Below are positions 6,440 through 37,351 of a stretch of 64,000 nt of DNA, one piece after another. Positions within the stretch are counted from its first letter, which is position 1; the number at the start of each line of letters is the position of its first letter. The translations under genes were made by a program, and so were the position numbers. The notes under the pieces are model-generated. The model saw only the letters and a list, made by a program, of their open reading frames with translations, had not been told where the DNA came from and searched no databases. The stretch comes from Diprion similis (Eukaryota > Arthropoda > Insecta > Hymenoptera > Diprionidae), in NCBI RefSeq assembly GCF_021155765.1, contig NC_060105.1, positions 12,681,001 to 12,745,000 of the forward strand, read 5' to 3'.

Positions 6440-7290
6440 CAAAGGGTTTACCCCTGTTTGAAAAATTTTTTAATTTCAATTTTTTATTTTTTATGAAGAA
6501 TTTAAGGAATGAAAATGTTGAAAAATCAGACAGAGATGTCAAAAAAAAGTTGTTTTTAAAATGCTTCGATTGTTTCAATTTACAATCACTGCAAAGTACA
6601 TAAATATAATTTTTTTCAATATTTTACTCTGACTATTTAAAAAAATTGTTACTAACCGATGCATTGTTTATGACAATATCCAAAAGACTGCCTTTTTTGG
6701 GTTATTCATCATACCGGTGCTAATAACTTGTAAACTGTGAGCAATACGGCAAAGACACTTCAAATTTTTTTTATACAACATTGAATAATAAACTAATTGA
6801 GCTTTCAATCAAAGCTCAAACTCGATTAAATAAAAGCACTTCATAAGGATATTTGTTTATTGAACCAACAATTAAAAAATGAAAAACAAACATTTTCTTT
6901 ACAAAATATGAAAAAGCACTGGAGAAAATGACTTGAATGAAAAAACAGTTCATGAATATGAATTTTTAGTATCGAAACAAAACTTTTAATCGAAAAAAGC
7001 GTTTTTAAACAGAGAGGACAATTTAAAAAAAAAATTATTGTTTCATTAAAAATCATTCATTTATATTTATGGTCAAATAGTACGGAGCAAATTTCTGAAA
7101 ATGTTATATACAATGCATTTGTTTATAACAATTTTTTGAATAGTCGGAGAAAAATATTGAAAAAATTATATCCATTTACTTTTTAGTGATTGTAAAGGAA
7201 AACCATCGAAACATTTTGAAAACAACTTTTTTTTTAAATGAAAAATTGAAATTAAAAAATTTTATAAACGGCGATCCCTTTGTTACGTAA
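6440..7290. repeat. Large imperfect inverted repeat, about 850 bp
   Basis: The left arm (about 6440-6690) matches the reverse complement of the right arm (about 7080-7290). Shared words include AAATTTTTTAATTTCAATTT, AAAAAAAGTTGTTTT, TTTACAATCACT, TATAATTTTTTTCAATATT and GACTATT. The 400-bp centre has no recognisable gene. It is probably a diverged foldback DNA transposon. Confidence 0.6.
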
Positions 7291-7365
7291 GAGGGTAGAC
7301 GTGTAAAGAGCGATGAAAGCTTATGACTATTAAAGACAATAATCAATTATGCACCCACGTAACAG

Positions 7366-7800
7366 CACTGAATAAAAATTGAAACTAGGTAAGAAAGACC
7401 TACCTTTCGGTACGCCGGTATTTGTAGGATCGTGTTGTTATAGTCCTATACAGGGCTGTGAGGTTTGTTTAAATAGGTTGAGGCTAATTTATAATATTAA
7501 TTGAATCCTGAAATTGGGGAAGGTCGTCGTTCAAAATAAATGGTTTATATGATTTAACATTTAAAATATATTCTTCAAACGATAGGAAAATGAAATTGGT
7601 GAAATGGTAACAATGAGTGAAGATTATAATAACAGTTTAATTTCGAGAAGTTGAACAATTTGGATTTATAAATGTTTGCGGATATAAAACAAAATAGTAA
7701 CTTATACCGAGAACATCTATATTGAACGCGTATTAATTCTATATGGTCTTTTGAATGCCTGTATCTCTCTTTTTAGATTCATAAGAACTGTAAATTAACG
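7366..7800 (-). repeat. LTR family A, left copy (3' LTR of the minus-strand element)
   Basis: Closely repeats the segment starting at 13968. Both contain GAAAGACCTACCTTTCGGTA, GGTATTTGTAGGATCGTGTT, CTATACAGG and ATTGGGGAAGGTCGTCGTTC, and both end near AGAACATCTATA-TGAACGCG and a CTCTCTTTTTAG-like tail. It lacks about 440 bp of GC-rich DNA found in the middle of the right copy. Edges are approximate; the plus-strand left edge is near TGAATAAAAATT. Since gag reads on the minus strand, this is the downstream LTR. Confidence 0.7.
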
Positions 7801-8016
7801 TGCCAATTGGATTGGCCCGCGAAAGTACCCGTTATTAGAAATATTGCTATTAATTGAGAAAATAGCCGTTGAGGTTGAGTCGGGAGAATCACTTTCGGGA
7901 TGTGCAGGAGCACACAGACGACAACCTTGTGTAGAAGATTTTATGTACGTGCTTCCGCCGGTCAATACATACAGGTTTTATCAAATCACACTATGAAAAC
8001 TCGTGATCAATTATAA

Positions 8017-9101
8017 TGTTGAAATGATTAAGATGCCGGGGCCGAGCTGAAGACTGGAGAATCACTCTCGAAATACCCAAAAGATATTTTCTACAACTAG
8101 GCTCCAGATCTAATATTGTTTCTTATATAAAAGTTTTTAGAAAACAATATGTTGCTTGAAGATGGCAAGATTATTTGGCGAATGTTTATTAGAAGCGAAT
8201 TGTTAATTATTATAGTTGAACACTTAAAATTCTTGGGAATCAGGGCGGAGCTCGATTTGATTTTTAAGGAAAGTCGAATATCATGAGAATGTCTATTCGC
8301 GAAATATTTAGAATGAGTACAGAACAGAAAAGAATTGAAGTTGGGTGATAGTAAGTCTTTGCAATTCACAGAACAAATTGAAAGTTTGAAGATGACGAAT
8401 CAGCTTGGTACTTTAGGGAGGTCACAATGAAGATTTTCCGAACGCTACTATCGACCAAAAGGGCTAATCCGGGTTGACGTCCACGCACCTCGCGACTTGA
8501 CAGACGAAAGACATGGTTTCTTGGGCCTGACGGTCCAAGAACCCTCGGTGCAATTAAGTTACAATGGTGATTAGCCAATGGGGTGCAAAGGCAACCTCCC
8601 GGTGCCAGAATCGGCATGGTCAGCGTTACTTTTATATAGCGTTACGTTCCGATGATTCTCAATCTCGTCGGTTACATACTATAAATATGAACAAACGATA
8701 TTTACATGTAATGCTCACACATTCATCCATGCATCGTAATAAGGAACCTATTTTAATTCAGTACATATTGTATGTATGGTTTAGCCTAATTAATAATGAT
8801 AATTTTGACTTAGAAAAAGGAGATACTTTTGGGCTGAGTGCCACTGCGATTCATGTCAGCACTTCATACTTCAGTTCTTGGTACTGCTAAATGACCCTAA
8901 GCTAAACTTAATATTGAGGCTGTGCGTGGCTTCCTCTAGGAGGGGTGGAAGTCCCCTGTTGAAGCAATATGTTATTTTAGCGCTATTTATTGCGCTGCAG
9001 CTTATTCTCAAGCGCTCAAGATGTTGAGTGCAATAAACTTTCTTTGGTCACTGTGTAAGATTGAAAAAAGGTTCACCGAGGCGGCACGTCGGGGCGTAAC
9101 A
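8017..9101 (-). repeat. LTR family B (3' LTR with adjoining polypurine tract)
   Basis: About 900 bp of this block recur at 39250-40202, with shared words such as GAATCAGGGC, AATGTCTATTCGCGAA, GACGTCCACGCACCTCGCGA and TCGGTGCAA. On the minus strand it begins TGTTACGCCCC and ends ATTTCAACA, i.e. matching TGTT...AACA termini. A purine tract lies directly upstream (9102-9114), so this reads as the 3' LTR of a minus-strand retroelement whose body lies to the right. Short apparent proteins inside it are shadows. Confidence 0.65.
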
Positions 9102-9114
9102 TCCCTCCCCACTC
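9102..9114 (-). other. Polypurine tract abutting LTR B
   Basis: On the minus strand GAGTGGGGAGGGA runs straight into TGTTACG, the expected layout of a plus-strand priming tract followed by the first bases of a 3' LTR. It anchors the element's 3' end downstream of the RRM/F-box gene. Confidence 0.65.
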
Positions 9115-9258
9115 AGAAAAAGTCAACGTCCTCGTTGATAATCTACATATTATAAGCATGGGTTATTATAACTATTATATATATCGAATAAGTTGTCCCT
9201 AAATGCAATCTTATGAGGGATGCCTTTAATCTAGGATGTACATCTCAAGGGATGGTTT

Positions 9259-9672
9259 GAGAATGACTCTCGGTAACCAGTAACTGGTTAGCCAATCCTT
9301 GAGCGCTACGAACTAATCTAAATTTTCATATTACATTTTTCATGGTGGTGGATTAATGATGGATATACTTTCTCTGAAATGAGACATTTCACTGACATGT
9401 TTTTCATGTTTAATTTAGGAATTGGTGGTTAAAGAGACTATTATTTTTTAATACTTCTTGATGTTTAATCAGGCAAGGCTTGAAAATTGCTCTCGATAAC
9501 CAGTAAACTGATTAGCCGAAACATTGGCAGGAGAATATCTCTCGATGATCAGTATAACTGGTCAACCAACCTTCCCCACTGCATTATATTTTGGATGAAT
9601 TAATTTAAACATGCACTTTATCCTAGCAGCTGACATGAGAATGTTTCTCGGTGATTAATCAACTAATCAGCC
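9259..9672. repeat. Four diverged hairpin-forming repeats
   Basis: Copies at about 9259-9293, 9482-9517, 9532-9567 and 9637-9672. The best preserved has the form GAGAATGACTCTC followed by GGTAACCAGT/ACTGGTTAGCC, two adjacent short stems. Related single stems occur at about 7885 and 8058. They lie in the 3' untranslated region between the RRM/F-box gene and the polypurine tract. Confidence 0.6.
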
Positions 9673-9725: not shown

Positions 9726-11506
9726 TTACACTCTCGAATTGTATACTACTTTCGAGGATCTTCTATAATATATTTTCAAAAATATGTTTCGCTTAACTTT
9801 CTTCTTCGTTGTTGCCTGTGTTTCGCCCACGTAGAGGTGAAGGGGTTGTTGGCGAAGACCTCTCCTGACTACTTCGGTTGCCACGGTAACTGTTTGGCTA
9901 GTCACCTCCCAGCATCCTTCGACGTCCACTAAGGTGACGTCCTGATTGCTGCGGATTAGACCGCAGATGTCCTCATCTGTTATGCCTGGGTTGTCACGGC
10001 ATTCCAAGGTCTTCAGATGCTCCATATGACGGAGGAAGTCCCCGCCAATGCTGGGATGCATGTTATTAATGACCAGCGTTTCTAGGGATTTGATCTTGCT
10101 CAATGATTCCAGAGAGAATTGACCTCTAATATTCGTACAGAAACTTAGATTCAGGTATTTCAATTGCTTGATGTTTTTCCCATCTCCGAGACCAGACAAC
10201 CAACCATCTAACCACAACTTATGAGTGAAAGGTGTTTTAATGCTGATAGTGATTTCGTGAAATTTGGTGTCACCGCGATCTCGTTTAGTTCCACGAAGTC
10301 ACCTGTGACTTCTCCCTCTAGTAGTCCTGGTTCTTCTTCTATTTCTTTATCTGGTCCATCTCCATGTATGGTCAGCGATGTTAAATTCGTTATTGTGCTT
10401 GGATTCATGGTCAGGGTCATTAATAAGTCGGCTCTACTCACCAGCTTACAATTGACGATTTCTACTTCCGTAAGCTTTGATAGTAATATCACTGTTCCTA
10501 TTCCTTTCAATCTGAGCTGATCGCAGTTCCGTACTCTTATTCTCTCTAATTTCGTTTGATAGATCAAACCCTCTCCCGTTGTTTCGTTATCATCTAGCGT
10601 AAAGTCTTTTAGCCGTGGGTTCCTTTCGAAAATTCTCTCGAGGTCCAGATCAATTGGTCCAATGCAAGGTCCCAGCTCCAGTTCCTCCAGGTTCGTAAGA
10701 TATAAACTGATGGCTTTCACAGCTCCTTCTCGTAAGGTGGTTGAGTTCAATTTCAGCGTCCTTAGATTTGGTGAATTTTTTATGAGCGCCGTAACAGCTG
10801 TTGACCTTAGGTCTTCGATTCCGTGGATGTTGGCGTGTAATAGGTACTCTCCACATCTTGTGGCGAACCAGAATAGGCCCTCCTCGTTTAAGGTTTGTCT
10901 CCAAGAAGAAGTCCACTCCCGGCTGTTAGGATCCAGGACTTTCGTTCCGATTAGGGAGGCTTTGGCTCCCTTGTTCCATAGCCGGCATACTTGCTCCATC
11001 CTTGACCGATCTACGTATGGTAAGTATCGTGCGATCATAGAGATGCACTCTATCTCCAAGTGTGGTGATTCTTTTGGGGTGAATCCAGGCAATGGGTCTT
11101 CTTCGAAACTCATTGGTTTTCTCCTCTTCATGGCTCTCGGCACTCTCAGTTCCTGCCATTTATCCGCGTAATCTACGTATAGCTTCCTCTTATGCAGTGT
11201 TACTCCTTGCAACCCTTGTAAAGCCTTGGTGGCGTCTCCGGACGTCTCGAAGGTTACGAACCCGTACTTCTGCATACCATCTGCTTTTGGTAAAACGATG
11301 GAGTTTGGGGAGTAGCTCCTCATCAGTTTCTCCAGGTGTTTCCTCCTTGCGTAGGGCGCAAGCCCGCCGATGAATAATCTCCTTGATGGTATCCTACCTC
11401 TTTTTGTTGCGTCGTATTGGGTCCCACTGGTACTCGCCATTTTCCTAGTAAAGTTCACAAAATTTTGACAGAACATATTTCTTATTAAAATAGGCCGAAT
11501 TTCCAA
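9726..11506 (-). CDS. RRM + F-box + leucine-rich-repeat protein, accessory gene of an env-bearing LTR element
   Basis: The first frame spans 11506-10208; the more likely start is the ATG at 11440 (MASTSG...), and the frame continues after a one-base shift near 10210 down to 9726. An N-terminal RRM shows RNP2-like RRLFIGGLA and RNP1-like YGFVTF. It is followed by an F-box-like segment (LEIECISMIARYLPY...VCRLWNKGAK) and then degenerate leucine-rich repeats (LRTLKLNS, LEELELG, LKYLNLSFC). Known roles: RRM binds RNA, F-box docks Skp1 of SCF ubiquitin ligases, LRRs select a target. The combination suggests an RNA-linked ubiquitination adaptor, which is inference. It starts 30 bp after the env stop on the same strand and is followed by hairpin repeats, a polypurine tract and LTR B. 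A decayed homologue next to env sequence lies at 33455-36495. The frameshift may be real decay or an assembly error. Confidence 0.75.
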
Positions 11507-11535: not shown

Positions 11536-12162
11536 TTAGTTCAATTGCACCGCTTGTGTTGGCAGGCGGTGGGGGGTTTGTATTTCAGAATAAGTTATTT
11601 CTGTCAATTCAGAACTTTCTCCAACATTTCCCGCGATACTTCGTTTAGGTATTTCCAATTCTCCAGCATTTCGTTTGCCTTTGAATACTTTGCATGTTTT
11701 GAAAATTCTGTCCCTACACCAGATCACAATAAGTACAACTATCATGCCTATCTGTGCGAAATATGAACCATAGATTCTTATGGATTGTTCCTGTGACGCC
11801 CGATGATGCCTTCCTATACTCTCTATCTCTTGCTCTATTTCATACAGCGATTTACCCTCTTCAAATTTAGACCGTACCTTTGTCTCTGATTCGTGCAAAT
11901 ATTCAATAAACTGGATAGAGTTATTATTCAATGTTGGCGAAATCATAGTAATGTTCAAAGACAGGTTAGGTTGATACAAATACTGTTCTTTTGCATAATG
12001 TACTTCTATGCTGGGCAACGTTATGTAACTCGTTTTTGCTGTGCATCCTCCTCGTAGATATAGAATTCCTGTCCCTGATATGGTTATTAGCGTGTCCCGG
12101 CTCTTCCTACAGATGATTTGGATTATGTCTGGGCTCCCTAGGGAATATAGCCATGCTCTCAT
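11536..12162 (-). CDS. env: Env C-terminal half of an errantivirus-like element
   Basis: About 208 residues with a helical, charged stem (EYLHESETKVRSKFEEG, YEIEQEIESIG), a single hydrophobic span (YGSYFAQIGMIVVLIVIWC) and a basic cytoplasmic tail. This is the organisation of the membrane-anchored subunit of insect retroviral/baculovirus F-type Env proteins. The N-terminal subunit is absent here. The reading frame is open, but it starts only 80 bp after the gag-protease stop, so pol and most of env were deleted. The RRM/F-box gene follows within 30 bp. Confidence 0.6.
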   Translation of the reverse strand: MRAWLYSLGSPDIIQIICRKSRDTLITISGTGILYLRGGCTAKTSYITLPSIEVHYAKEQYLYQPNLSLNITMISPTLNNNSIQFIEYLHESETKVRSKFEEGKSLYEIEQEIESIGRHHRASQEQSIRIYGSYFAQIGMIVVLIVIWCRDRIFKTCKVFKGKRNAGELEIPKRSIAGNVGESSELTEITYSEIQTPHRLPTQAVQLN

Positions 12163-12242
12163 CGAATTTAACCTCTTCTAGAAGGGATTTACTTTACGTT
12201 TTATCCTTATGTCACAGTTTCGTGAATTCTTATTATCTGGTT

Positions 12243-13889
12243 TTAATAGCATCGAGATCTCGCTTTGATTTTGTAAAGCCGTTTTCGCGGTCTTATTTCC
12301 GAATCGGAATCGTCCTCGTGGCCAATAAATCGAATTGGTCTTATTGGTTCTGTTTCAGTAACCAACGTATCATGTGCAAATGGAATTTCTGCTTTTCGAT
12401 CACATAAGAAATCTTTTCCCAAAATCCCATCACAGTCTAACGGAAGGGTGGAGCGTACCACGTGAATTTTGCTTGGTTTATTTTGTATAGTCAAATTTAC
12501 AATCCCTAAAGTCTCGATTTGGTCTGTCGTTATTCCGGCAATTGTTGAAATTTCATTAGTACAGATTAATACGTCAGGATGTAAAACTTTAGCTTTTATT
12601 AGACTGATTTCTGCGCCTGCATCGATTAAAAATGCCCCTGAGTGTTCTTTTAATTCGGCAGATGTTACTCGAATCTCCTCATTGCTTCGCGGAGATGGTG
12701 ATCGCGCTCTGTCATTTGAATTATTGGTATCATATGAACGCGAAAAGGAGTTCGGTGAATTAGATCGGTAGAAATTCCGATTTTCAGAGCTTGGTCGATT
12801 CCCTGGTCTGATGGTTTCGGACCACCTCCCAGTTGACGATATCGATCTAGAAGTTGAAGTTAGTACCGGTTGCTGAGTAAACGAGGATGAACTAGGCATC
12901 GCTGGTGTGTACCCATGAGATGATAAACAAGGGCAACCCATCGGCGGGTACACGTGAGGTGGTGTATGGTAGCAGAACGGTCGTTCATACCGAGTATTTG
13001 ATTTATATTGAGGTGGGTAAAAACCATGTGTCGCGGGCTGGTAATACCCACGCGGTTCCGGCGATGACCTCCCGCTGGCGCTTGTCGTCGGGTACCTGCT
13101 ATTCGCAACGCTCGGCGACGGGCTCCTCACACGTGTTTCCCTACCCTCTAAAACTGGGTAATTCGAGTACCTACGGTGCCTGTTATACTCATCATATGGG
13201 ACGGGGGAAACCGGTCGAGTCAATTGTACTCTTTGTGTTTCTTCTGAAGGGATGATCCCTTGCTCTATCCGCATTTTTGTTTTACAAGCTAATTCGTGTG
13301 CTTTCTCCAGGGTTTTCACTCGTCCCTCTACGTACCTAAAGATTTTTAATGGTAATCCCCGCATATACGCGTCTAAACTACTTTCCTTCAAGGATTTTAT
13401 AATTCCTTCTAATTCTGATGACGGATATCTGTCTTCTAACGACAGCCGAGCTTCGTGAACAAGTATATTCAGGCGGTCGTAAAAGTCACTAACATTCTCA
13501 TCGCGTTTCATTCTCAATGACAAGATTTCTTGCTGGTAGTAAGCGAATGTTTTATTCGCGGCAAATCGGTTTTTCAAATGTTTGGTCAATTCGTCGATCG
13601 TATTGAATTTTTTTCCGTAAGTACTATCTCGCGCTCTTTCTTGTAACTTAGATAACACGGCCTTTACGTACGCGGTTTCAGAATTCGGCGGGACGTATAC
13701 CGACCCGTTGTGCACGTCTTGAAGAAAATCTTTCAACAGAATGTTCTTCCCGTCGAAAAAGAGAATATTAGCCGTGCTCTGCTGTAACGCGAAACACTCT
13801 GCCATAGACGTCATCATCACGCTACTTGCGTCCAAGCCTGATACATTGGATCGGTCCGCGCTCTGGTTTGGCATTTTTGTATCGTTCAA
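12243..13889 (-). CDS. gag-pro: Gag-protease ORF of an errantivirus/Gypsy-type element
   Basis: 548 codons. The N-terminal 230 residues resemble insect errantivirus Gag (ILFFDGKNILLKDFL, a helical middle, KAHELACKTKMRIEQG). A Pro/Ser/Arg-rich linker follows without a zinc knuckle. The C-terminal part holds an aspartic protease with FLIDAGAEISLI at the active site (Ala where Thr/Ser is usual) and GILGKDFL as the second conserved block. Gag and protease are in one frame. The ORF stops shortly after the protease, where reverse transcriptase would begin. LTR A starts about 80 bp upstream. No internal stop is present, so the deletion may be recent, or the ORF has been kept. Confidence 0.7.
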   Translation of the reverse strand: MNDTKMPNQSADRSNVSGLDASSVMMTSMAECFALQQSTANILFFDGKNILLKDFLQDVHNGSVYVPPNSETAYVKAVLSKLQERARDSTYGKKFNTIDELTKHLKNRFAANKTFAYYQQEILSLRMKRDENVSDFYDRLNILVHEARLSLEDRYPSSELEGIIKSLKESSLDAYMRGLPLKIFRYVEGRVKTLEKAHELACKTKMRIEQGIIPSEETQRVQLTRPVSPVPYDEYNRHRRYSNYPVLEGRETRVRSPSPSVANSRYPTTSASGRSSPEPRGYYQPATHGFYPPQYKSNTRYERPFCYHTPPHVYPPMGCPCLSSHGYTPAMPSSSSFTQQPVLTSTSRSISSTGRWSETIRPGNRPSSENRNFYRSNSPNSFSRSYDTNNSNDRARSPSPRSNEEIRVTSAELKEHSGAFLIDAGAEISLIKAKVLHPDVLICTNEISTIAGITTDQIETLGIVNLTIQNKPSKIHVVRSTLPLDCDGILGKDFLCDRKAEIPFAHDTLVTETEPIRPIRFIGHEDDSDSEIRPRKRLYKIKARSRCY

Positions 13890-13967: not shown

Positions 13968-14888
13968 GCACTGAATAAAAATTAAAACTAAGAAAGACCT
14001 ACCTTTCGGTACGCCGGTATTTGTAGGATCGTGTTCCTATAGTCCTATACAGGTCTGTGAGGTTTGTTTAAATAGGTTGAGGTTAATTTACAATAATGAT
14101 AATTGAATCCTGAAATTGGGGAAGGTCGTCGTTCAAAATAAATGGTTAATATGATTTAACTGGTGAGAGATAAAATGTATTCTTCAAACGATTTGTGAAA
14201 TGGTGAAACGATAACAAATGAATAATTCGAGGTAACAATTGAATTTGTAAATGATATATAATGAAGGATGTTATGACAATTCGAAAAGAGAAAACAATCT
14301 GAATTTATGATATTTGAAGTTGTGGGTATCTTTGGTGGTCACTTGTGAGGAGGATTGGTTGGATTGTTGAATAGGCTACTGGTTGTTGGTGATTGTTTAT
14401 TAATACAGGTTACGTATCGCAACTCGGGCGTCGTTCGCTCTCGAGCGTCGTCGGAAGACTACTCTCTAAGTTTGTCGCTTCCACGCTCGTTGCAGTAGGT
14501 GGAGAGTTCTTATTGGCTAACTTAAACTAAAACTCCCCTTGGCAAGGGGAAGGTCAATTGCGGAAAAAACCCAGACTAGGTTGACCGTTAGGTTCGCCTA
14601 GCCATGCGTTTGCAATTTGCATTTGGCGACCAGATGTTTTATGGCCGGGTCGAGGGAAAAATCCGAAGGGTTTTCCGAACCATAAAAAATCTGGCGCGCA
14701 AATGTGAGAGCTCGCTTCGTAGCTTACCTGGTCGCTACAAAGTCATATAAAAGATTACGTAGAATTTGTTATTATAAAATAAAATGGTAAATTAGGACCA
14801 AGAACATCTATAATGAACGCGCATCAAATCTAGATGGTCGTTTTAGTTATTTGAATTTCTCTCTTCACATAAATAATGGTCTTAAATT
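13968..14888 (-). repeat. LTR family A, right copy (5' LTR)
   Basis: Same family as 7366-7800, with a roughly 440-bp extra central block (about 14325-14780). That block is richer in GC and contains CTCGGGCGTCGTTCGCTCTC. It lies directly upstream of gag-protease on the minus strand and so should hold the promoter and the 5' end of the transcript. A primer-binding site could not be assigned with confidence. Confidence 0.65.
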
Positions 14889-14891
14889 ATA

Positions 14892-15248
14892 TTGTCAAAT
14901 ACAGAAATGCTCCGCCGAGCCGCTGAAACACACACACTTTTTGCTTTAGTAATAATTGTCCTAATTGTGCTACCACCCCAGCTTGGCGTACTATGACGTC
15001 TCTTTCACCAGTGTTGTATACCTGTATACTCAGATTCACGGTGGTCATCAGGAAATCTTACGGTAGAGCCATCCACTCTCGAGGCACCACCACATTTGAA
15101 TACGGGATTTGAACGTATTCCATGTCTGAAAAAAAAAGAAAAAAAACTGTCATCACACTTCATCGTATAATGTTGAAAAAAAAAAAAATTTCTGACACAA
15201 CTCACCGATTGAGATTATGATGTCGATTTGTTGTTGTTGGAAAAAAAT
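14892..15248 (-). pseudogene. Two-exon relic of unknown protein, copy 1
   Basis: A small exon (15248-15206) is framed by TTTTTTCAG and GTGAGT. A second exon starts at 15125 after a long T tract and CAG. Joined, they read in one phase until a TAA at 15063-15061, then stay open to about 14892. The translated pieces include QQQQIDIIISI, YVQIPYSNVVVPREWMALP and, after the stop, LSIQVYNTGERDVIVRQAG. The same protein pieces, also with a small upstream exon, occur at 32990-33215. The last block faintly recalls the final dUTPase motif, but the other motifs are missing, so I give no function. Confidence 0.4.
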
Positions 15249-15278: not shown

Positions 15279-15528
15279 TCTCTTAGAGAGTTTGTATATA
15301 CTAGTCTGTTTAGGTAAGGATTATCCCGTAACATCATTTAATCAGTAAGATTATTGTAAGCTGAGGGTGGTTATTTCCCAGAGCCGTAAAAAGGTGATAA
15401 AGAGAGCCGTATGCATACAATGCATACGGAGACTCAAAAATAGAAAATACAAATGAATTTAATCGTAAACTGAAAGATAATCAAAGTAAAACTAATGAGT
15501 AGGAGCAGAGGGCATCGAGGATGTGACA
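15279..15528 (-). repeat. LTR family C, truncated 3' LTR
   Basis: Nearly identical to the right 240 bp of the solo LTR at 33687-35006: TTAGAGAGTTTGTATAT, GGATTATCCCGTAACAT, GTATGCATACAATGCATACG. On the minus strand it begins TGTCACATCC immediately after a polypurine tract. Its left part is lost at 15279, where the unknown spliced relic begins. Confidence 0.7.
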
Positions 15529-16552
15529 CCTCCCCCCTCCGTTTCAAGTGTTAAACGTGTGTTTAACATTTGACGCTCGCGTAAGTGGTCTTCTAGCACA
15601 CTGGTGGGTATGAGTTTTATTGCCTGTGACTGAGATACGACCGGTGGGTTTTCCATGTCTTGTTCCTTTGTAAAGGCTTCTTCATTGTTCCTATTGTCCG
15701 ATTGGGGTTTTCCCAAATGCGTCAGTAGAGTTTTCAATGAACTGAGTAGTGCCCCCAGCAGATGTATGCTCCAGCCATAAATTGTGTGCAAAGTATACCC
15801 ATGGATTCCAACATTGATCAGTGTTTTAATCAATTGAATAGTGAAGTAGACACCCAGGACTCCAGAACTAGCAGTTCCAAACAACATGAATCCATTCCAA
15901 AGTTTGCGTGATGTAGATTCGACGATTTTATTTGAAGAATTCTCATCCAATAAGCCTGATAATGATATTTTAGACCCGGAAGTAGAGTGTCCGGCTGCTC
16001 CTCTTGCAACTGCGTTCAGCACAGCTGGTTTTTCGATCGGGAACATTACTCGATCGCGGTAGCTTTCCAAATCCTCTTCCGTATAGATACCACTGACAGA
16101 AAGAGGTGGCGGTTTGGTATATTTCCAAGATAACTGGGTCATTGGTGTGAGCTTCTCCGGTGCGTCAACGATAACCTTTGGTAGAGGTGAGAATTTAATC
16201 CAGGTTCCATCAATGTTAAATGTGCTCGGTTGCAATTCACTGCATTCTCTTTCGTTTGATTTTCTGACAATAATGCGTGATTTCGGCGTCAAAAAGAGCG
16301 ATTGATTTTGAAATGTAATTGGTATTTCCTGATGACATGTATCTGTTTTTCTAACATTTACCGTAACGGGTACGCATTTAATTAGTTGTACGGCTTCTCC
16401 TGCTCGTATGGCCATGTAGCCCGGTCCCTTCATGACGTTGTATGCGAATTCATCTGGTGTATCGACGGCAAGCGTAAGGGTATTCCGCAATACCTGCTCT
16501 TCTAGGGCACATTTTTGTTTGATAACATCTTTATAAACTTGGGCTACGGATC
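15492..16552 (-). CDS. Chuvirus-like glycoprotein used as env by an LTR element (5'-truncated)
   Basis: The frame is open from about 16552 to the stop at 15492. Recognisable blocks are CHQEIPI, a FLTPKSRIIV strand, the conserved junction MFPIEKPAVLNAVARGAAG, and a long membrane region (GVLGVYFTIQLIKTLI ... GWSIHLLGALLSSL) followed by a charged tail. This matches the arrangement of glycoproteins of insect Chuviridae, which are known to have been captured by insect LTR (BEL/Pao) elements. The N-terminal ectodomain is missing; at 16553 the sequence changes to LINE ORF1. A more broken relative lies at 48387-49381. The stop lies inside LTR C. Assignment rests on motif memory, without a search. Confidence 0.65.
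15529..15540 (-). other. Polypurine tract of the chuvirus-env element
   Basis: On the minus strand GGAGGGGGGAGG is followed directly by TGTCACATCC, which is also the end of the solo LTR at 35006. The tract lies inside the glycoprotein reading frame, so the last dozen codons and the stop of the glycoprotein are within the LTR. Confidence 0.7.
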
Positions 16553-16554
16553 TT

Positions 16555-17570
16555 TATAAACAACTGCTACGGAGTTGCGGAAAGCCTCCGACCACGGAAA
16601 GGGCGGGGACTCTGAAAAGTAGAGTCAGCGCGGCGAAGACTGCAGATCTGTTATGGACCCACCGGGCGACACCATGAGCGACGCGAGGACGGTCGCAAGG
16701 CGCCGTACGTCTGGGAACTGATGTCAGGAGGGTCCAGGTGTGGAGGAGAAGCAGCAGGTTGTGAGGATTGTGAGGATGTACGCGGAGCAGCATCTGCAGC
16801 ACCACGGGCGTCTGCTAAGGCGGCCGAATTGGCGAGAACGACAGTAGAGACAGCTATCGGAAATCGTGCCTCGAAAGCGGCAAGGGCATCGGCCGATGTG
16901 ATGCGGTGAATCGGGGCACCGTCGGACTTACGGAGTAGAATGACGCCCTCTCTATGCCACACATATTTGAAGCCGCGAGGCTTCGCGACAGCTTTGGTTG
17001 AGAGGAGTAGCCGGTGAAGCTCCGCAGGAAGAGCCTCCTTCACGTTAATCGTGAAACCACGACCCGGCGGAACCACGGGTAGGTCAGTTGTACGTAAGGT
17101 CCCTTTGTTCTTTTTGGCAGCCAGTAGACGCAGCGTTAGGTCTCTAGACGACAGCCTCACTAGAAGTGACAGCGGGGTATCCTTGCGAGCCTTTGAACGA
17201 GAAATCAGAAAGCGGCAGACCGAAATGTCCGCACTGGCAATGGTAAGATCGAGCGCATCAGCCAGTCCGATGACGGCAGGGCGAATAACATCAGCTGAAG
17301 AACAAGGCATTCCCGAAATTATGACCTCCGTTTCGCAGAGGCGAGCGGAAGTGCGAAAATGCTCCGTTCTATTGGTTTCATGCAGACGACGCAGATCCCC
17401 GACCGCCTCTTGCAGCACGTGATTTTGGGCCTCAAGTTCCGCGATAGTAACAATACAAGGGGGGTTCTGCGCCACGAACCCTACTTTACCGGCCAAGCTC
17501 CCTCCTGGCACCCCAGACGCAAACCCTTGAAGGTTACCCCCCACCCTCGTAAGGTAAGATGTGCTCTGTC
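16555..17570 (-). CDS. Non-LTR retrotransposon (LINE) ORF1 protein, partial
   Basis: About 320 residues are open, from the edge of a short tandem repeat (17574) to 16651. A coiled-coil-like stretch (IAELEAQNHVLQEAVGDLRR) precedes a core with the pattern EVIISGMP...DISVCRF...VRLSSRDL, then KEALPAELHRLLLSTK and VWHREGVILLRKSDG. This resembles the nucleic-acid-binding ORF1 of CR1/I-type arthropod LINEs. The open frame extends upstream through the repeat, so the true start is unclear. ORF2 (endonuclease/reverse transcriptase) is absent. GC content is clearly above the flanks. Confidence 0.65.
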
Positions 17571-17573
17571 GAT

Positions 17574-17675
17574 CGATCGTCGGTAAAGAAATCCGCCGAA
17601 TTAGCACGATCATCGGTAAAAAATACCTCAAATTCGCTGGATCATCGGTAAAGAATGCCGCAAATTGCCGTAGGT
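17574..17675. repeat. Three short tandem repeats of about 33 bp
   Basis: Units begin ATCGTCGGTAAAGAA, ATCATCGGTAAAAAA and ATCATCGGTAAAGAA, each followed by a C/G-rich half ending near AATT. They sit exactly between the LINE fragment and the Polinton segment, so they may be the subterminal repeat of the Polinton or a LINE 5' end. Confidence 0.55.
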
Positions 17676-19066: not shown

Positions 19067-19771
19067 TTATTCCTTTGTCATGTTTATAAAATTGTCGAAT
19101 CCCTTCCTATATCGACCATTGTCGAGCTCTCGATCCTTGTCGATCACGAGGAACCCATATTTGTCACCGTTCCAGCATGCCACACACAAGTCTTTAAACT
19201 CTGTGTACGTCATATCGGTGTTTACGTGATCGTTGTATACGTGTCTCAGGTTCATTTCGTCTTGTTTGAATAAGACCAGCAGGTTAGTGTTATCGCGTAC
19301 GAGATGCTTGGGGATCCGCGCGTACGTCTGACAAAGATAGAAACAGTCTACGTCATGATGTCTACCCATACAAAAGTATGCGCGTACGTTGTCCTGCTTC
19401 TCGCACGCTACGTCATCTAATATCATGATTGAGTTAGGTTGCGTCTCGTTCGGTGCGATGACGTGCTCATGCTCGTTAAAGGAGAAGTATTCAACACCGT
19501 CGACGCTTTCAAGCACTTGACTGAGAAACTTGTATTTCGGTTGATTGAGAGATTTTGAGTAAACGTACAGGTTTTCAAACATCAAACCGTTCGGATGCGT
19601 TACAAGTGAGAACAATGCGTTGGTTTTGCCACAGTTAGAAGGTCCACGAAATACCGCACGTACACTACTCGGTAACAGTTCACCGTGGCGTTTTTTCGGT
19701 TTTTCATTTTGCTGCGTATATTTGTCAAAGTTCACCACAAGTAGCTTGATCGATTGTGTCTTAAACTTCAT
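19067..19771 (-). CDS. Polinton/adintovirus packaging ATPase (FtsK/HerA, A32-like)
   Basis: 234 residues. The Walker A loop is GPSNCGKTNA and Walker B is SIMILDDVAC, followed by the sensor-like region FYLCQTYARIPKHLVRDNTN. These are the signatures of the genome-packaging ATPase of Polintons, adintoviruses and virophages. The length is typical and there are no internal stops, so it is the best preserved gene of the remnant. It is divergent from the neighbouring plus-strand structural genes, separated from the PLA2 gene by only 71 bp that must hold both promoters. Confidence 0.85.
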   Translation of the reverse strand: MKFKTQSIKLLVVNFDKYTQQNEKPKKRHGELLPSSVRAVFRGPSNCGKTNALFSLVTHPNGLMFENLYVYSKSLNQPKYKFLSQVLESVDGVEYFSFNEHEHVIAPNETQPNSIMILDDVACEKQDNVRAYFCMGRHHDVDCFYLCQTYARIPKHLVRDNTNLLVLFKQDEMNLRHVYNDHVNTDMTYTEFKDLCVACWNGDKYGFLVIDKDRELDNGRYRKGFDNFINMTKE

Positions 19772-19842
19772 CTCGAACGTGACTGCTCGATTTTCTATAA
19801 ATGCATCGTTTATAAGGATTTTCCTTCAGTCGAAGAGCGAAC

Positions 19843-20574
19843 ATGATTGTGCACACACGCGATCGTAAGCGATCCTCGAAAAAACAATCACGTGGAAGAG
19901 GATTGGTGAATAGCATCATCAACAAACTCCCGATCGAGTTGCATGTTCCCGGATACCAATATTCCAGTCCTGGTACAAAGTTGGCGAAAAGACTCGCGAG
20001 AGATGATCCCGGTATCAATCCTCTCGACGCAGCGTGTAAGGAACACGATATAGCATATTCGAAAAATCGTGAAAATCTCGAGGCTAGTAACGTCGCGGAT
20101 AAAATATTAGCCGAGAAAGCCTGGAAACAGGTTTTAGCAAAAGACGCAAATTTAGGCGAAAAAGCAACTGCTTGGGCTGTAGCGAACACGATGAAGGTAA
20201 AAACAAAGTTAGGCATGGGTTGTCGAAAACCCAAGAGCGTTCCCTTAAACAAAATCATACGCGTGGCAAAGCAATCCATGATACCGAGCCACAACGCGAA
20301 AACTAGCATCAAATCTGCACTGAAAGGTGCTCGAGAAGCTGTGAAAAAAGAAGGTGGTAAACATAACGTGCGATCACCGCGCATTCAACCGGTACCCTCA
20401 AAAGTTGGTGGATTTCTACCTTTTCTCATACCTATCTTTACCGGTCTAAGCGCTACGGGTGCATTAGCGGGAGGTACTGCGGGTATAGAAAAGCTGTCAA
20501 CGATGCGAGCGCGGCTAAACGAGAATAAGAGGAAAGTAAACGGCACAACAAAACAATGGAAGCGATCGCATTAG
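19843..20574 (+). CDS. PLA2-domain minor capsid/lytic protein of the Polinton
   Basis: 243 residues, intact. The basic N-terminus is followed by a parvovirus-type phospholipase A2 core: Ca-loop-like LHVPGYQYSSPG, then catalytic LDAACKEHDIAYSKN with the His-Asp pair. The C-terminal third has a glycine/alanine-rich hydrophobic segment (GGFLPFLIPIFTGLSATGAL) ending in a basic tail, like membrane-lytic minor capsid proteins. In adintoviruses such PLA2 proteins are thought to help the virion breach endosomes. The next small gene overlaps its end by 19 bp. Confidence 0.8.
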   Translation: MIVHTRDRKRSSKKQSRGRGLVNSIINKLPIELHVPGYQYSSPGTKLAKRLARDDPGINPLDAACKEHDIAYSKNRENLEASNVADKILAEKAWKQVLAKDANLGEKATAWAVANTMKVKTKLGMGCRKPKSVPLNKIIRVAKQSMIPSHNAKTSIKSALKGAREAVKKEGGKHNVRSPRIQPVPSKVGGFLPFLIPIFTGLSATGALAGGTAGIEKLSTMRARLNENKRKVNGTTKQWKRSH

Positions 20575-20636
20575 GTAAAGGTCTCCATCTTAAACCGTAC
20601 AAGAAAGGTTTTGGTCTTCATCTTTCAAAAAACTAA
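20556..20636 (+). CDS. pX/core-like basic peptide (26 residues)
   Basis: A tiny ORF from MEAIALGKGLHLKPYKKG to ...SKN. The GKGLxLKPYKKGxGLxL pattern is typical of short basic core peptides encoded next to the PLA2 gene in Polinton/adintovirus genomes. It starts inside the end of the PLA2 gene in another frame and ends just before the protease. Its function in DNA condensation is inferred from family resemblance. Confidence 0.6.
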   Translation: MEAIALGKGLHLKPYKKGFGLHLSKN

Positions 20637-20638
20637 AT

Positions 20639-21881
20639 GTGACGCTACCACGACGAGCGTTGACCAATTGGGATTTGTTGAATTATGCAAAACTTATGAA
20701 AATTCCGTATTTCCGAGGTGTCTTTATGCGAAACGAAATGCCCAAAAACGGGCCGCGTGAAAACGAGGCAGCCGTCGTCAATCTTGACGACAAAGAGGGT
20801 CCTGGGACACACTGGGTTACGTATAAGAAACGTGGCACCGATGTCATCTATTTCGACAGTTTCGGTCTGTTCACGCGTCCGCGGCACAATTATTGGAATC
20901 GCGTCTCGCACGACGTGAACTCCTACAATTCTAATTAAAGGATTGTAGGTACTTCTGGATAAGATATTGATTGACTCGGAGTATAATATTTATATTTAAA
21001 TATATTTAAGTACGAATCAATATGGTTAGAAGTTTACAGTTGTAGTTACAAAATTGGTTAGAAGTTAGTTTGGTGAATGAGTTTCGTTTGTTTTCGATAG
21101 TTTAATAACGAGAATATAAGTTAGATATTCCCGGAGCCAATGATCTTTAGTTCAGTTTCGGGGCGATGGTACTAGTGTGTACCACCGAGAGGATCGTTTT
21201 AGACTCAAGTTTTAGTTTCGAAATGTTTCTGAGGTAGATGATAATAGGAGTCGGAGTTTTGGTTTAAGGGTAGGAGACGGAAGTTAGAAAAATTCTTGGT
21301 CCTGATTTCTGATTGGTAGGAATATAACAAATTGTCGGATTGGTTCAGAAAATGAAAAGGAATGGCGTAGAAAGTGGGGAGAGGACCAGGTAAGAGTGTA
21401 AAAGTTAAACAATAGGCGACCGTGTCGCAGCCGCATTGTCCAGGCTGGTTCCCGTACACATCTGTTGACCAACTGAGTGTCGTAAAAAATGGGAAAAACC
21501 CATGTGGGTGAAATTCGTGCTATGATTTGACTCGCCAAAAAGGTATTTATTACTTGATTTGAAGGTCCCGAATAAGTATATTGTTTGCCAGATGTGGGAT
21601 GGTTACAGCTGCCGGACAGCGCGGCACGGACTGACCTGGCTGAGGCCATATACCGGGTTCGGCATGTCCGTACTTACAATCTAATGACTCTACATATTTT
21701 TTGCTATAAAATGTATACGTCGCAACACGGTCATCTTCAACCTCCGTTGGACCTCGTGCAATATCTCGGCGTTGGTAGTGTAAAATATAACGATGAAAGA
21801 TACCAAGATTACGGTACGTTCGATTGCGGACACTTGTGTCTGAAATTTCTGAGCGGTGAGCTATATAAACGTCGTACATAA
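20639..21881 (+). pseudogene. Adenain-type cysteine protease split by a solo LTR
   Basis: The N-terminal piece reads from about 20639 to 20867 with LTNWDLLNYAK, a catalytic-His block (GPGTHWVTYKK) and the Asp-containing YFDSFG. The C-terminal piece (21728-21881) resumes with HLQPPLDLVQYLG and the catalytic-Cys block FDCGHLCLKFL. Between them is an 860-bp solo LTR. The two pieces fit together in phase at the target duplication. The first frame has no good ATG; the start region reads ATGTGACG, as if one base had been inserted. In Polintons and adenoviruses this enzyme matures capsid proteins. The gene is inactive here. Confidence 0.8.
20868..21727. mobile_element. Solo LTR (860 bp) inside the Polinton protease
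   Basis: The insert begins TGTTCACGCG, ends CGTCGCAACA and is flanked on both sides by CGGTC (20863-20867 and 21728-21732). TG...CA ends with a perfect 5-bp duplication define a solo LTR of BEL/Pao or Gypsy type. No open frame of note. The orientation of transcription could not be fixed. Confidence 0.85.
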
Positions 21882-21911
21882 TTTAGTGAAGGCAGTCTAA
21901 CACTTGCAGCC

Positions 21912-22598
21912 ATGGATGATTCGTTTACGTTAACGATATCGGGAACGTCATCGATTTTCGAAGCGCAATATTTCCCCCCGATCGAACTTGCTTCAGACAA
22001 AAATTACACTCTTGGTCTCGTTGAATTGTTAACCTTCAATTCCATTCCCAACGTTGACGCTGGCCACAATAAATTGTACATAGGTGATAAGGTAGTCACC
22101 ATATCTACCGGCAGCTATGAAATTGAGGATATCGGAAAGTATGTTCAAGACGCTGTGAAGAATACAGACATTGAAATCAGCATCAAACCTAACAATAATA
22201 CGTTATGCAGTGAAATCAAATGTAACCACGTCGTGAATTTTTAGCCTAGTAATTCTATTGGTCAGTTTCTTGGATTCACACCGCGTGTATTTTCAGCTAA
22301 ACAAACTCACCAATCGGATATGCCTGTAGCTATTCTCAAGGTCAACGCGTTGCGAGTCGAATGCAGCATTACAACGGGTGCCTACGTCAATGAGCGCAAA
22401 GTTCATACTATTCACGAATTTTTCCCCATCGTTCCACCGGGATATAAGATCGTGGAAGTGCCGTCGCACGTCATTTATCTTCCGATCACCGTTAAGACCA
22501 TAGATCACATACAGCTTCGGTTAGTAGATCAAGACGGAGACTTGGTTAATTTTCGCGGAGAAGTTATAACTGTGAGACTGCACATCAAATCGCAATAA
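21912..22598 (+). pseudogene. Penton-like minor capsid protein with one internal stop
   Basis: From ATG 21912 the frame reads LTISGTSSIFEAQYFPPIEL and YTLGLVELLTFNSIPNVD, the conserved N-terminal block of the Polinton penton (PY) single jelly-roll protein. A TAG at 22242-22244 interrupts it; the same phase then continues through IGQFLGFTPRVFS and a final beta-rich block to 22598. The total length of about 228 codons is normal for the family. It sits between protease and major capsid gene, the usual structural cluster order. Confidence 0.75.
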
Positions 22599-22601
22599 AA
22601 T

Positions 22602-22772
22602 ATGGGTATTGTATATAACAGATTACCCAACAAGAGTTATATTAGTAAGGCGGCATGTCCCGATCAAGTCAGTCATCGATCGATTCCCAAACCGTTAACA
22701 ATTCAAAACGTGGAATTTCTGATAGCTCTGGGTCTAAAAGTGACACCTTTTGGAAGAGGAATTTCCAACTAA
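22602..22772 (+). CDS. Small conserved-looking ORF between penton and major capsid genes
   Basis: 56 residues (MGIVYNRLPNKSYISK ... LKVTPFGRGISN). It begins 3 bp after the penton stop and ends 40 bp before the capsid start. Its tight placement in the structural operon-like cluster suggests a real small Polinton gene, probably virion-associated. No domain recognised. Confidence 0.45.
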   Translation: MGIVYNRLPNKSYISKAACPDQVSHRSIPKPLTIQNVEFLIALGLKVTPFGRGISN

Positions 22773-22812
22773 TAAAACTACGGTTCTGCTGTTTCGTTGT
22801 CTGCTACGTACT

Positions 22813-23496
22813 ATGGAGGAGGAAATCTTGAGCATTCAAACACCCGTCGCCTTCGATGAGTCGATCGCTCACCAAGAAATACATGCACACAAGCCGTATG
22901 TGTCATCAACTTTTAACAACAGCGATGAGATTCGCATCACCGTTCAGCATCAGGATTTATGCATATTACCAAGCAAGAGTTCGCTGCATATCCCGGGAAA
23001 ATTGCTCAAATCAGATGGCAGTCCAGCAGCGATTACAACCCTGGTCAACAATGCCATCTGCCATCTGTTCGAAGACGTACGGTACGAGCTAAACGCTGTA
23101 GAGATTGACAAATGCAAAAACGTTGGTCTAACCAGTCTGCTAAAGGGTTTCGCTTCGCTCAACCCTGGTCAGAGTTGGCTTATGGAAAACGCTGGATGGC
23201 TCGATGTTCGAGAAACGAAAAAATTAACTGACGCCGATGGTAACTTCGATGTGGTTATTCCCTTGAGCATGATATTGGGCTTTGCCGAAGACTATCGCAA
23301 GATCATCGTCAACGCGAAGTATGAGCTGATTCTCACAAGATCAAAGAGCGATTCAAATGCCATTGTTCGAAATCAAGACGAAGACTTTCGAATTGTGACC
23401 GATCAAGTGGAATGGTTAGTACCGTACGTGAAGCTTTCGGATCAACGAGAAAGCGTCTCAAGGATTCAAGAATGCATGTCGCTGCGTGATGCGTAA
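22813..23496 (+). pseudogene. Polinton major capsid protein, 3'-truncated
   Basis: Starting at MEEEILSIQTPVAFDE, the sequence shows blocks typical of the double jelly-roll capsid protein of insect Polintons: AHQEIHAHKPYVSSTFN, LCILPSKSSLHI, FEDVRYELNAVEID and VEWLVPYVKLSD. It ends at 23496 after about 227 codons, where family members continue for a second jelly roll of comparable size. The rest is replaced by mononegavirus L-like sequence, so the gene was broken by that insertion or by a deletion. Confidence 0.75.
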
Positions 23497-23514
23497 ACGG
23501 TTTACGTAAAAGGT

Positions 23515-25429
23515 TTGGAGACGAAGATTTGGCTGCAGAAAGTTCTGGGTGAAAACGTTCAAGTTGTCGACCCAATGGATTTGGGTTGTCCGTCGTTGCA
23601 AAAATTGAACAAAATGTCAGATACTAAATTGAACTGTACACATCACTCTATATTACATCCAAACTGTGCTGCTCAAAACGTATTGTTACTGCGAAATTTT
23701 CCCTACTGTTTGCAATAGGGTACTGTTGGAAAAAGTGGCGCAGAACTGGCCTAGCTCCTCTATTCAGGAAGCAACACATTCAATCAATAATAAAGACGCG
23801 TCACATCTCTACTCATTCAGAAACTTTTTGAAAGCAGGGGTATGTCTAACTGCAAATCCTAAAAAGTTGAAGTCTTATCGAGATGTTGAGACATGGGAGG
23901 GTTGGAAACATATCACTGGAAGATATGGTGATTCTATAGGATTTGAGGGGGTTTATGGAGAAGGAGATGATATGATTGAATTTTTTGTATCTCAAAGAGT
24001 TATGATCATGAAATTCATAGGAAAATATTATCTAGCATCGAGAAATCACTTTCTTATGTTAAGTGATTTAATATCCCAAAGATACATACCTTTGGCAACT
24101 TGTAAAATAGGTGAAAAGTTGGAACGGCTAAATTATCCGCCAGTTGAAAAATTAGAATGAATTTTTTCATTACGGGATCAACTTCTCAAGAAGTATGGAA
24201 ATAGTGGTTATGCATCCCTTTCCTTATGGGAGGCAATTTGCACAGGAGAAATCCTTAGTAGAAAATCTGATAAAGCAATCAATGAACAAGATTTCAAAAG
24301 GAAAATGAAGAGAGCCTATATAGAATCACAGGGAGAAACCCAAATTGAATGGTTATCAAGTTTCTATGAGGAAAACATTGAAAACATATTCCCACAAATA
24401 GATGAAACTTATCTATTTGAGTTATTTGGTGTACACAGAATTTCGGATCATCCAACGATTGATGAATTAGCTAGGGCTAGAAAGAATAGGTCTATAACCT
24501 GCAAATATAGACTTACAAATCCTCATCTAATAGATGTCGTTACATGGAAATGGAGGGAATATTTTTCACTATTTTGTGAAGCAGTTCACTATTGTACCAG
24601 AGGAATAAGAGAGCTCCTAATACTACCTTGATCAAGGCCTTAAGAGAAGGGGTCTCAGTATCAACATTTTTGAAAGGTTATAATTTGTTAGATCGGAGAC
24701 ATATTAAATTCGACAAAACATTCGAGATCCCAGAAGATTTCGGATTATTCGAAATGATATCCGATGAAGCCTTATTCTTAAATATTGATGAATCGAAAGC
24801 TGAATGTAAGAAATCAGGAGGTATAGGTGCATTCCATACGAGAAATGTAATCCTATCATGGTTGAACTCATACTATAATAACCCTGCAGAATTCCTTCAG
24901 AAAATAGATCAACAAGGATTTGCCGGAAATTACAATGAATTTTAATTCTGTCACTCTACAAACAAGGATATATGCCAATACATTAAAACAAGCAACAGAT
25001 AAAGTTAGAGGAAATTAACACACCGTAATAGTCAATATGGACTTCACAAAGTGGAATTCCTACATGAGAGAGGAGGAGACAAAAAGAATATTTCAAGGTT
25101 TTGACCATTTATTTGAGCTTGATCAAGTTTATACTAGAACACATGAAATGTTTTCACACAGTATAATGTACCTAGCAGATGGTACTGTAACACCCTTTCA
25201 CCGGAATGGAAATCTTATAGAATCAGATAGATGTTGGACCGGACATTTAGGAGGTATAGACGGTCTTCGTCAAAAAGGTTGGACAATATTTACCGTTGTC
25301 ATTCTTAAGTACAATGCAGACCTAAATGGGGTCCTATGTCAGATTATGGGACAAGGTGATAATCAAGTCTTAATACTAAAATATGACAAAGATTTTTTTT
25401 TATACAATGAGATCATTCGTAATTCGTAA
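23515..25429 (+). pseudogene. Endogenous mononegavirus L polymerase fragment
   Basis: Four overlapping pieces read as one L protein from near its N-terminus to the palm. Landmarks: WEGWKHITGRYGDSIGF..., SLRDQLLKKYG after a TGA at 24158, then MDFTKWNSYMREE (motif A region), HLGGIDGLRQKGWTI (motif B) and GQGDNQVLILKY (motif C, the GDNQ signature of Mononegavirales). The frame is broken by TGA 24158, a shift near 24600, a shift back near 24944 and a TAA near 25018. It ends right after the catalytic GDNQ region, so it could not act as a polymerase. Family is not resolved. The left edge (23515-23665) is tentative. Confidence 0.85.
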
Positions 25430-33215: not shown

Positions 33216-33686
33216 AAATCCCAAGAAAACTTAATAACTGCAATGATTTTAATCACCCATCTAAACGCTTTAAAGTTCGACTTTACATGATTTCATCAAG
33301 TTATCGAAGGCGAGCCAAGCGTCGGGCACCTTAGTCTAACGCCTTCACGAGCGCAGCGCTGTGGCGCCATATTCACGCCTGAGGTCAGCCGATTGCGAGC
33401 GCCCGCACTGCGCATGCGCGGCGGCGAGTCGGGCGAGCGAGAAGCAAGCAGCGCTCAGTCTCTGTACAGTCTGCGACCAAGCTCGAAGAAGGTAAGAGCC
33501 ACCACGTTATCACAGCACTCCAGTTGCTTCAAGTTGTGAAGGAAGCTTCCTCCCACAGAGGGGTGCATATTGTTGAGTGCCAGGAATTTTAATCGCGACA
33601 AGTTCTCCAACGGCTCCAGTGCAAACTGCCCTCGTATGTTGGTACACATACTTAGGTCCAGGCGTGTCAGGTGTTGTAACTTACTC

Positions 33687-35006: not shown

Positions 35007-35364
35007 ACTCCCCATTTCAGAGATCATCGTGGCATTTACCCAACCATAACCCACTGGTGACAGGCGTTGCAACGCTGTTAAGGAGTCCATCAGGTTCGGT
35101 TGTACCGGTAACTCGTTCAGATCCATGAAGTCTCCTACTATATTTTCTTCCATTCCGTCTTCCTCTCCGGTTTCGCTGTCAGGACCGTCTCCATAGATGG
35201 TCAGCTCCTTTACGTTGGTGTTTGCGATTAGTGCGTTTAATAAGGCCGCGTTAGTTACTTGCAGTGCTTAATTTCCAATCTCTTGAGTCTTTTCTGATTT
35301 TGGATCGTCTTTGCTAGTTCTTCTGTCTGTATTGCGTCGCAGTTTTGAATATACGAATATACGA

Positions 35365-36846: not shown

Positions 36847-37084
36847 TATCCTCTTATCCCCTTATTTCGTATTCCTCGAAAATGAATGCTGATTATTTCC
36901 AGTTGTTAGGTTGCATTCGTCCATGGTCAATCAGTAAGTAAATTCGAGTTTATCTACGTGTTTCACGAATCCGTTTTCCCGCCTTAAAACATTCGGTCTT
37001 CATATTCATGTCGTTACCACCCACTTCTAAATTACATGTTGAGTTCAAACTCGGAAGTTCCATTATCATGTTGGCCAAATAGTT

Positions 37085-37252: not shown

Positions 37253-37351
37253 CGTTATTTTATATTCTTGCTTTCGTCTTCTTCAAAAATGAATACTCAT
37301 TATTTTTTGGCTTGTCACGTGTTGTCGCGTTAGTTTGTCCGCGTCTTATCA

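Follow-up and report, generated by a model that had tools for sequence, protein, structure and literature searches.

The stretch of DNA considered here (the window) comprises 64,000 nucleotides from the genome of the diprionid sawfly Diprion similis (contig NC_060105.1, C1:12681001-12745000), and on its minus strand lies a gene, copy W1, that joins an RNA recognition motif (RRM), an F-box and leucine-rich repeats (LRRs) and that appears to belong to an env-bearing long terminal repeat (LTR) retroelement. This domain combination, proposed in the initial annotation, is borne out by Pfam matches on two overlapping frames: in the open frame 11506-10208 (-) there are matches to RRM_1 (3.9e-10) and, slightly above the cut-off, to F-box (2.8e-4), and in the overlapping frame 10217-9726 (-), which holds the C-terminal part, there is one to LRR_4 (8.6e-6) slightly below the cut-off. 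Being split over these two frames within the window, W1 is broken. The mechanical open reading frame extends to 11506, and the likely start is the ATG at 11440 (MASTSGTQ), a start common to the copies C2, C10a (MASTSGAQ) and C10b, so that the first open part spans 10208-11440 (-). The gene adjoins env as had been noted; the distance of 30 bp from the env stop is that of the mechanical start, and the likely ATG lies at 95 nt.

The product has the features of an RRM protein, namely an RRM domain with RNP1/RNP2 aromatic residues, read here by a motif rule that we take to apply; the RNP1 aromatic positions are retained in most copies of the alignment, and an RRM_1 match also occurs in C10b (1.5e-5). 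It likewise has the layout of the FBXL class, an F-box followed by leucine-rich repeats, with the F-box region of the structural model at low confidence. Among the best 60 of 72 PDB sequence matches, most are RRM proteins, the others being FBXL2 (residues 214-333, 1.5e-5) and a small number of further LRR proteins. A ColabFold model built from a 7-row alignment is confident in the LRR part only (block predicted local distance difference test score, pLDDT, 72-88, residues 241-360), and each of the first 13 Foldseek PDB matches is an LRR F-box protein or a complex containing one, with D3/MAX2, KDM2A, FBXL2 and FBXL17 among them (E 5e-6 to 3e-4). Modelling of the folds thus recovered the F-box/LRR class, with the RRM and F-box parts themselves of low confidence.

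Upstream of W1, on the same strand, 11536-12261 holds the C-terminal part only of an errantivirus-type (Baculo_F) env; its piece 11536-12162 aligns with the C10a env at 78-79%, and Pfam, given that piece alone, does not recognise it as env. A gag-pro frame (Retrotrans_gag, RVP; 12243-13889, -) meets env near 12260, pol being absent altogether, and is preceded by an interrupted 5' LTR remnant (13968-14969, -; matching stretches 13968-14217 and 14740-14969). Origin of the pol-less W1 from spliced cDNA was rejected, since GCGAGA is shared at the gag-pro/env join and GT/AG is absent, and deletion or template switch fits better. W1 may be a mosaic copy, because its DNA identity to C2 is 71-76% in gag and 93% from env to the F-box gene. 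Downstream of the gene come the 3' untranslated region (UTR), the polypurine tract AGTGGGGAGGGA at 9102-9113 (-), which confirms the tract placed at 9102-9114 in the initial annotation and is identical in the C2 and C10a copies, and the 3' LTR. The LTR does start at 9101 (TGTTACG) as annotated; its end lies not at 8017 but near 7281 (CGTAACA), an end common to the four copies compared, which gives an LTR of 7281-9101 (-).

The gene was then searched in its own genome (a 269-Mb assembly of 60 contigs; genome searches scored the best candidates only), and 14 matches resolved into six gene loci, one fragment beside LTR pieces (C2:2187k) and one weak match of 26% (C8:7659k). Two of the six loci, W1 and W2, lie in the window; the other four are C2:1228k, C10a:1683k, C10b:1649k and C7:8746k. 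W1 resembles C2 more closely than it does C10a. W2, the homologue reported at 33455-36495 as directly following env, was found as a fragmented gene at about 36495-33506 (-), interrupted by other insertions and adjoining the end of a truncated integrase (37483-37358) and pieces of a truncated env (37243-36983 and 36804-36492), all within 36492-37483 (-); an LTR copy of the same family, which may or may not belong to W2, lies upstream of it (39035-40202, -). Every copy carries damage: W1 is in two frames, C2 and C10a each contain an insert, the latter with frame breaks as well, C10b has an early stop, W2 is in pieces and C7 contains stops.

In all six gene loci, errantivirus-type env sequence immediately precedes the gene on the same strand. 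The env is partial in W1, W2, C7 (38% identity over 149 residues, 8e-24) and C2, where the N-terminus is missing, and in C10b a copia-type insert interrupts it. Four of the six loci (C2, C10a, C10b, W2) also have integrase upstream of env, comprising the first 141 of 318 residues in C2 and the last 54 residues in W2, and in C10a it is separated from env by about 18 kb of insertion. After the gene, the 3' UTR, the polypurine tract and the LTR start TGTTACG follow in three of the six loci (W1, C2, C10a), while in C10b the gene runs directly into the LTR without AGTGGGGAGGGA. The longest arrangements are those of C2, with gag (N-terminus missing), RVP, RVT_1, RNase H, a macro domain, partial integrase, most of env and the gene, and of C10a, with gag, the end of reverse transcriptase, the macro domain, integrase, env and the gene. 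Reverse transcriptase before integrase, the order of Ty3/gypsy elements, is seen from RVT_1 (8e-39) and RT_RNaseH (1.4e-35) in C2 and rve (2.5e-13) in C10a; an F-type env downstream of pol is seen in the upstream part of the C10a env (Baculo_F, 1.6e-35); and paired LTRs with TG...CA ends and a polypurine tract are present, the C2 5' LTR being truncated. Domains and order support the assignment of the element to the errantivirus-type Ty3/gypsy endogenous retroviruses, and the claim that the gene is an accessory open reading frame of an env-bearing LTR element holds up, given env upstream at every locus, the tract and LTR downstream at half of them and gag-pol-env order at C2 and C10a. A full-length element carrying the gene was recovered in part: all gene regions stand in order at C2 and C10a, with some truncated, and none is complete or intact.

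The macro domain, which lies between RNase H and integrase (L011:6185-6658 in the C2 copy and L016:9560-10000), matches human OARD1 (PDB 4j5r, 9e-19), which we take to be TARG1; a more distant macro domain (32%) occurs in another gypsy element, L025, and this ADP-ribose hydrolase-like domain in pol may merit attention itself.

Over 226 columns, the 5' and 3' LTR pieces of C2 share 94.7% identity, differing by 10 mismatches and one gap. The insect mutation rate is about 3e-9 per site per generation, at which this divergence corresponds to an insertion age of several million to ten million generations, so that the C2 element is a fossil.

A host FBXL gene, or its retrocopies, could in principle lie beside env fragments by chance in a transposon graveyard; nested elements crowd both the window and the C10 region, and the C10b copy appears in the public record as an F-box/LRR-repeat protein (P0001, 'F-box/LRR-repeat protein fbxl-1-like [Diprion similis]', identical to that locus at 100%). 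This explanation is very improbable and was rejected as largely refuted: env then gene is the order in six of six loci over four genome regions, the gene stands between the env stop and the polypurine tract in three copies, and env and the gene diverge together. Intron-bearing single-copy host genes with neither env nor LTR nearby, which such an explanation would predict, were not encountered among the tested copies; no introns were seen in the six loci, and env is near each. The identities of env and F-box gene to W1 run in parallel, being 88-89% and 90% for C2, 79-84% and 74-79% for C10a, and 49% and 49% for C10b; the overall series for both is about 89, 76, 49 and 38%. Parallel divergence is what joint inheritance predicts, and inheritance of the gene with env through at least three diverged sub-lineages is supported by these alignments. 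C2, C7, W1 and C10a look like separate insertions. The pairs W2-W1 and C10b-C10a have the same order, 25-33 kb apart, each region holding one copy of two sub-lineages, and no shared unique flank was seen between the window (C1) and C10 regions.

Selection on the gene was estimated from the ratio of nonsynonymous to synonymous substitution rates (dN/dS), leaving out rows under 60 codons or 35% identity, and the pairs are not independent. For open pieces of the F-box gene, 20 pairs gave 13 finite values (0.084-0.315), six saturated ones and one that was dropped for paralogous repeats (C10a_f with W1_c); seven of the 13 finite pairs have dS below 1 and dN/dS of 0.084-0.315, and the other six, with dS above 1.8, are rough. 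For env, eight pairs gave four finite values (0.123-0.332) and four saturated ones. The finite ranges of both support purifying selection on the gene about as strong as that on env, the LRR parts are likewise under constraint, and this suggests that the gene was formerly of value to the element. Taken together, the codon-level estimates and locus comparisons support a gene inside the element, co-inherited with env and under purifying selection, and confidence in its belonging to the element rests on gene order and co-divergence over several loci.

The distribution of the gene among related elements bears on what it may do. Of 27 matches in an env search of the genome, five have more than 36% identity, and the four places where these lie are all gene loci; the other 22 are at or below 36%. 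At 15 other env matches (L033-L047), whose env is about 24-34% identical to the W1 env C-terminus, the gene is absent from the sequence covered, which extends 1.5 kb past each match, or about 1 kb past the end of env where that end is visible. L038 and L039 form the two arms of a single inverted place; in L035, L036, L038 and L040-L042 the match is on the minus strand and the env frame lies outside the plus-strand open reading frame list, the F-box tblastn covering both strands. Of the plus-strand env frames open to 696-701 codons, six of seven have TGTTACG 0.35-0.8 kb downstream. LTR relatives of the element were also found (84% identical LTR starts; 40 of 145 LTR candidates scored), and six pairs, on C11, C14, C12, C4, C8 and C3, stand 9.8-10.8 kb apart; their near-equal scores suggest that they are recent copies and that this family was recently active. 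In the 3' part of one of these pairs (L048), an 807-codon frame runs through integrase, and no env or F-box match was found before the polypurine tract and LTR. Solo LTRs at C5, C13 and C7 (L049-L051) carry no internal element sequence. The gene was therefore found in one env-bearing group only, and in L048 it is absent together with env. Since an env-less, recently active-looking relative (one read) also lacks it, the gene does not seem to be needed for transposition inside cells.

Polerovirus P0 is an F-box protein that degrades AGO1, and by analogy the element protein might suppress silencing by degrading a piRNA (PIWI-interacting RNA) or siRNA (small interfering RNA) factor. An F-box plus an RRM on an endogenous-retrovirus-type element would suit such a role, and the selective pressure for it is real, in that insects target env-bearing gypsy elements through ovarian somatic piRNAs, according to the available part of PMC13172572. 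Suppression by this gene is not generally required, however, because the env-less relative and 15 other env matches are without it; this argues against an obligatory general silencing suppressor, and we regard the P0-like role as unlikely. Lentiviral Vpu is an infection-stage accessory protein, and a second analogy would make the product a helper of that kind, coupled to env (perhaps via the same subgenomic mRNA) and serving to remove a receptor or restriction factor. The start of the gene so soon after the env stop would be consistent with this, as would the absence of both gene and env in L048; but that is one relative only, the joint absence could be a single deletion of the 3' module, and the RRM is left unexplained, so that a Vpu-like helper also has a low likelihood.

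The hairpin repeats that had been noted after the gene are real, with four units in the window, in the 3' UTR at 9254-9672 (-), and five in each of two other copies, each unit forming a three-helix Y. Across 15 units (W1, C2, C10a, L048), standard pairs fill 95.7% of 210 pair cells, compared with a shuffled mean of 93.5%, a level reached by 1 of 500 shuffles; none of the 500 attains the covariation score of 0.233, which sliding the partner breaks. The units were chosen by pattern, eye and alignment, which favours pairing. Three pairs change on both sides, a count not unusual in itself (204 of 500 shuffles). A mechanical hairpin scan gave eight window matches, three of them true units, versus 3.0 per shuffled window, the other units being recognised by pattern and alignment, and folding of the whole 3' UTR was not clearly better than that of 20 shuffles (z -1.06). 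With four to five conserved structured units directly after an RRM gene, the protein might handle element RNA (export, translation or packaging), the F-box serving only self-turnover. Yet one such unit also occurs in the gene-less relative L048, and the constraint on the LRR parts suggests substrate binding, which makes a purely RNA-handling role quite improbable. The candidate status of the hairpins as a dedicated RRM target was weakened by that same unit; because L048 has one too, the units are treated here as RNA signals of the element and give no proof of an RRM target.

The reading that we favour, with some reserve, is that an env-bearing Ty3/gypsy element gained an RRM-F-box-LRR gene between env and the polypurine tract, and that the product is a substrate adaptor of the Skp1-cullin-F-box (SCF) ubiquitin ligase acting for the element. 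The F-box would dock the protein on Skp1 of the host SCF ligase, the LRR solenoid would select the substrate, and the RRM would tether the ligase complex to RNA, so that an RNA-bound host (or element) protein would be ubiquitinated during the env-bearing, infectious part of element life. RNA-guided recruitment of a ubiquitin ligase, as the initial annotation had it, is what the pairing of RRM and F-box would imply. Within the SCF-adaptor reading, the target is about as likely to be a silencing factor as it is to be a restriction factor or receptor encountered in the infectious stage. The fuller version, in which the element encodes an RNA-tethered SCF adaptor that destroys a host RNA-bound defence factor in the env-expressing stage and represents the first F-box accessory gene of a retroelement, is put forward tentatively and may well not hold. 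Several observations weigh against the adaptor reading. None of the six gene loci is intact and no complete element exists among them; W2 and C10b might derive from one insertion via duplication, lowering the count of independent loci; the ColabFold model has a mean pLDDT of 51.7 and a predicted TM-score (pTM) of 0.48 and is weak outside the LRR part; the Foldseek TM-scores are low (TMq 0.26-0.36 over the first 13 matches); the hairpin unit in L048, a relative without the gene, indicates that the hairpins are not a dedicated RRM partner; and outside D. similis, protein searches recovered no relative of full length.

As to the origin of the gene, its closest host relative found is an intron-split FBXL gene on C8, translations of which match it colinearly at both ends (W1 11023-10481, 4.6e-12; 10160-9771, 7.9e-9). 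This host gene extends over at least three open stretches, is 24-32% identical to the element gene, and matches FBXL2 with its first piece (6.7e-10); given that identity, other host FBXL genes may be nearer. Because the host relative is split over stretches while the element gene shows no intron, capture of mRNA is the simplest account, and the source was probably a spliced host FBXL-type mRNA, with the RRM coming from elsewhere, as far as these alignments indicate. Fungal protein matches (P0002, P0003) cover only 16-18% of the query and carry RRM domains, and IMG/VR yielded no relative of the gene. Beside the C8 host gene lies a long tandem array whose repeat period is close to 312 bp (L027:4038-10000, C8:7664-7670k).

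Other features of the window and genome are as follows. Two chuvirus-type fusion glycoprotein remnants occur at 15492-16490 and 48680-49381 (-) (PF24664, 5.7e-100 and 2.6e-87) and are perhaps env of Anakin-type LTR elements, Anakin denoting LTR elements with a chuvirus env in the available part of PMC12440569. DNA-virus-like genes at 19067-24160 include a Pox_A32-type ATPase (1.1e-5) and a double jelly-roll capsid-like domain (8.2e-39), and this region is perhaps a Polinton/adintovirus remnant; its frame 19843-20574 is presumably phospholipase A2-like, judging by a motif. A Baculo_FP_2nd match (3.5e-12) at 16651-17631 (-) presumably marks a long interspersed nuclear element (LINE) ORF1-type protein, and a PHD finger match below its cut-off (0.0012) at 37641-38123 (-) is preceded by a stretch that we take to be Ulp1-like. 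The window and C10:1630-1700k both contain dense nested retroelement pieces of the same families, in layouts that, we assume, resemble flamenco-type piRNA clusters.

Ubiquitin-ligase hijacking by accessory genes is a hallmark of vertebrate lentiviruses (Vif, Vpu, Vpx); a whole F-box adaptor in an insect endogenous retrovirus would suggest an independent origin of this strategy among invertebrate retroelements, and its substrate could point to a new insect restriction factor. The predicted sawfly 'F-box/LRR-repeat protein' P0001, taken at face value a host protein, is most likely the product of an element gene. To our knowledge, no viral F-box protein has an RRM plus LRRs. In the literature, as represented by titles and abstract starts, with most subscription papers, preprints and repeat databases lying outside, no F-box gene was found in an errantivirus or other LTR element, and the term 'F-box' occurs 0 times in the available parts of PMC13172572, PMC12992720 and PMC12440569.

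Compared with known systems, the element shares with errantivirus-type Ty3/gypsy elements (Metaviridae) the gag-pro-RT-RNase H-integrase-env order, the F-type env, the LTRs and the polypurine tract, and it adds the RRM-F-box-LRR gene after env and the OARD1/TARG1-like macro domain before integrase. With host FBXL proteins (FBXL2, FBXL17 and the C8:7659k gene), the gene product shares the F-box followed by an LRR solenoid, with sequence and fold matches; the C8 gene differs in being split, in its 24-32% identity and in having no RRM match reported at it. Viral F-box proteins such as polerovirus P0 and poxvirus ANK/F-box proteins are similar in that a virus-coded F-box is expected to use host SCF, but they do not come from retroelements. 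Finally, LTR elements that have captured a chromodomain or, as in Anakin, a chuvirus env (PMC12440569, available part) have likewise gained a foreign gene or domain, although a different one and at a different place in the element.
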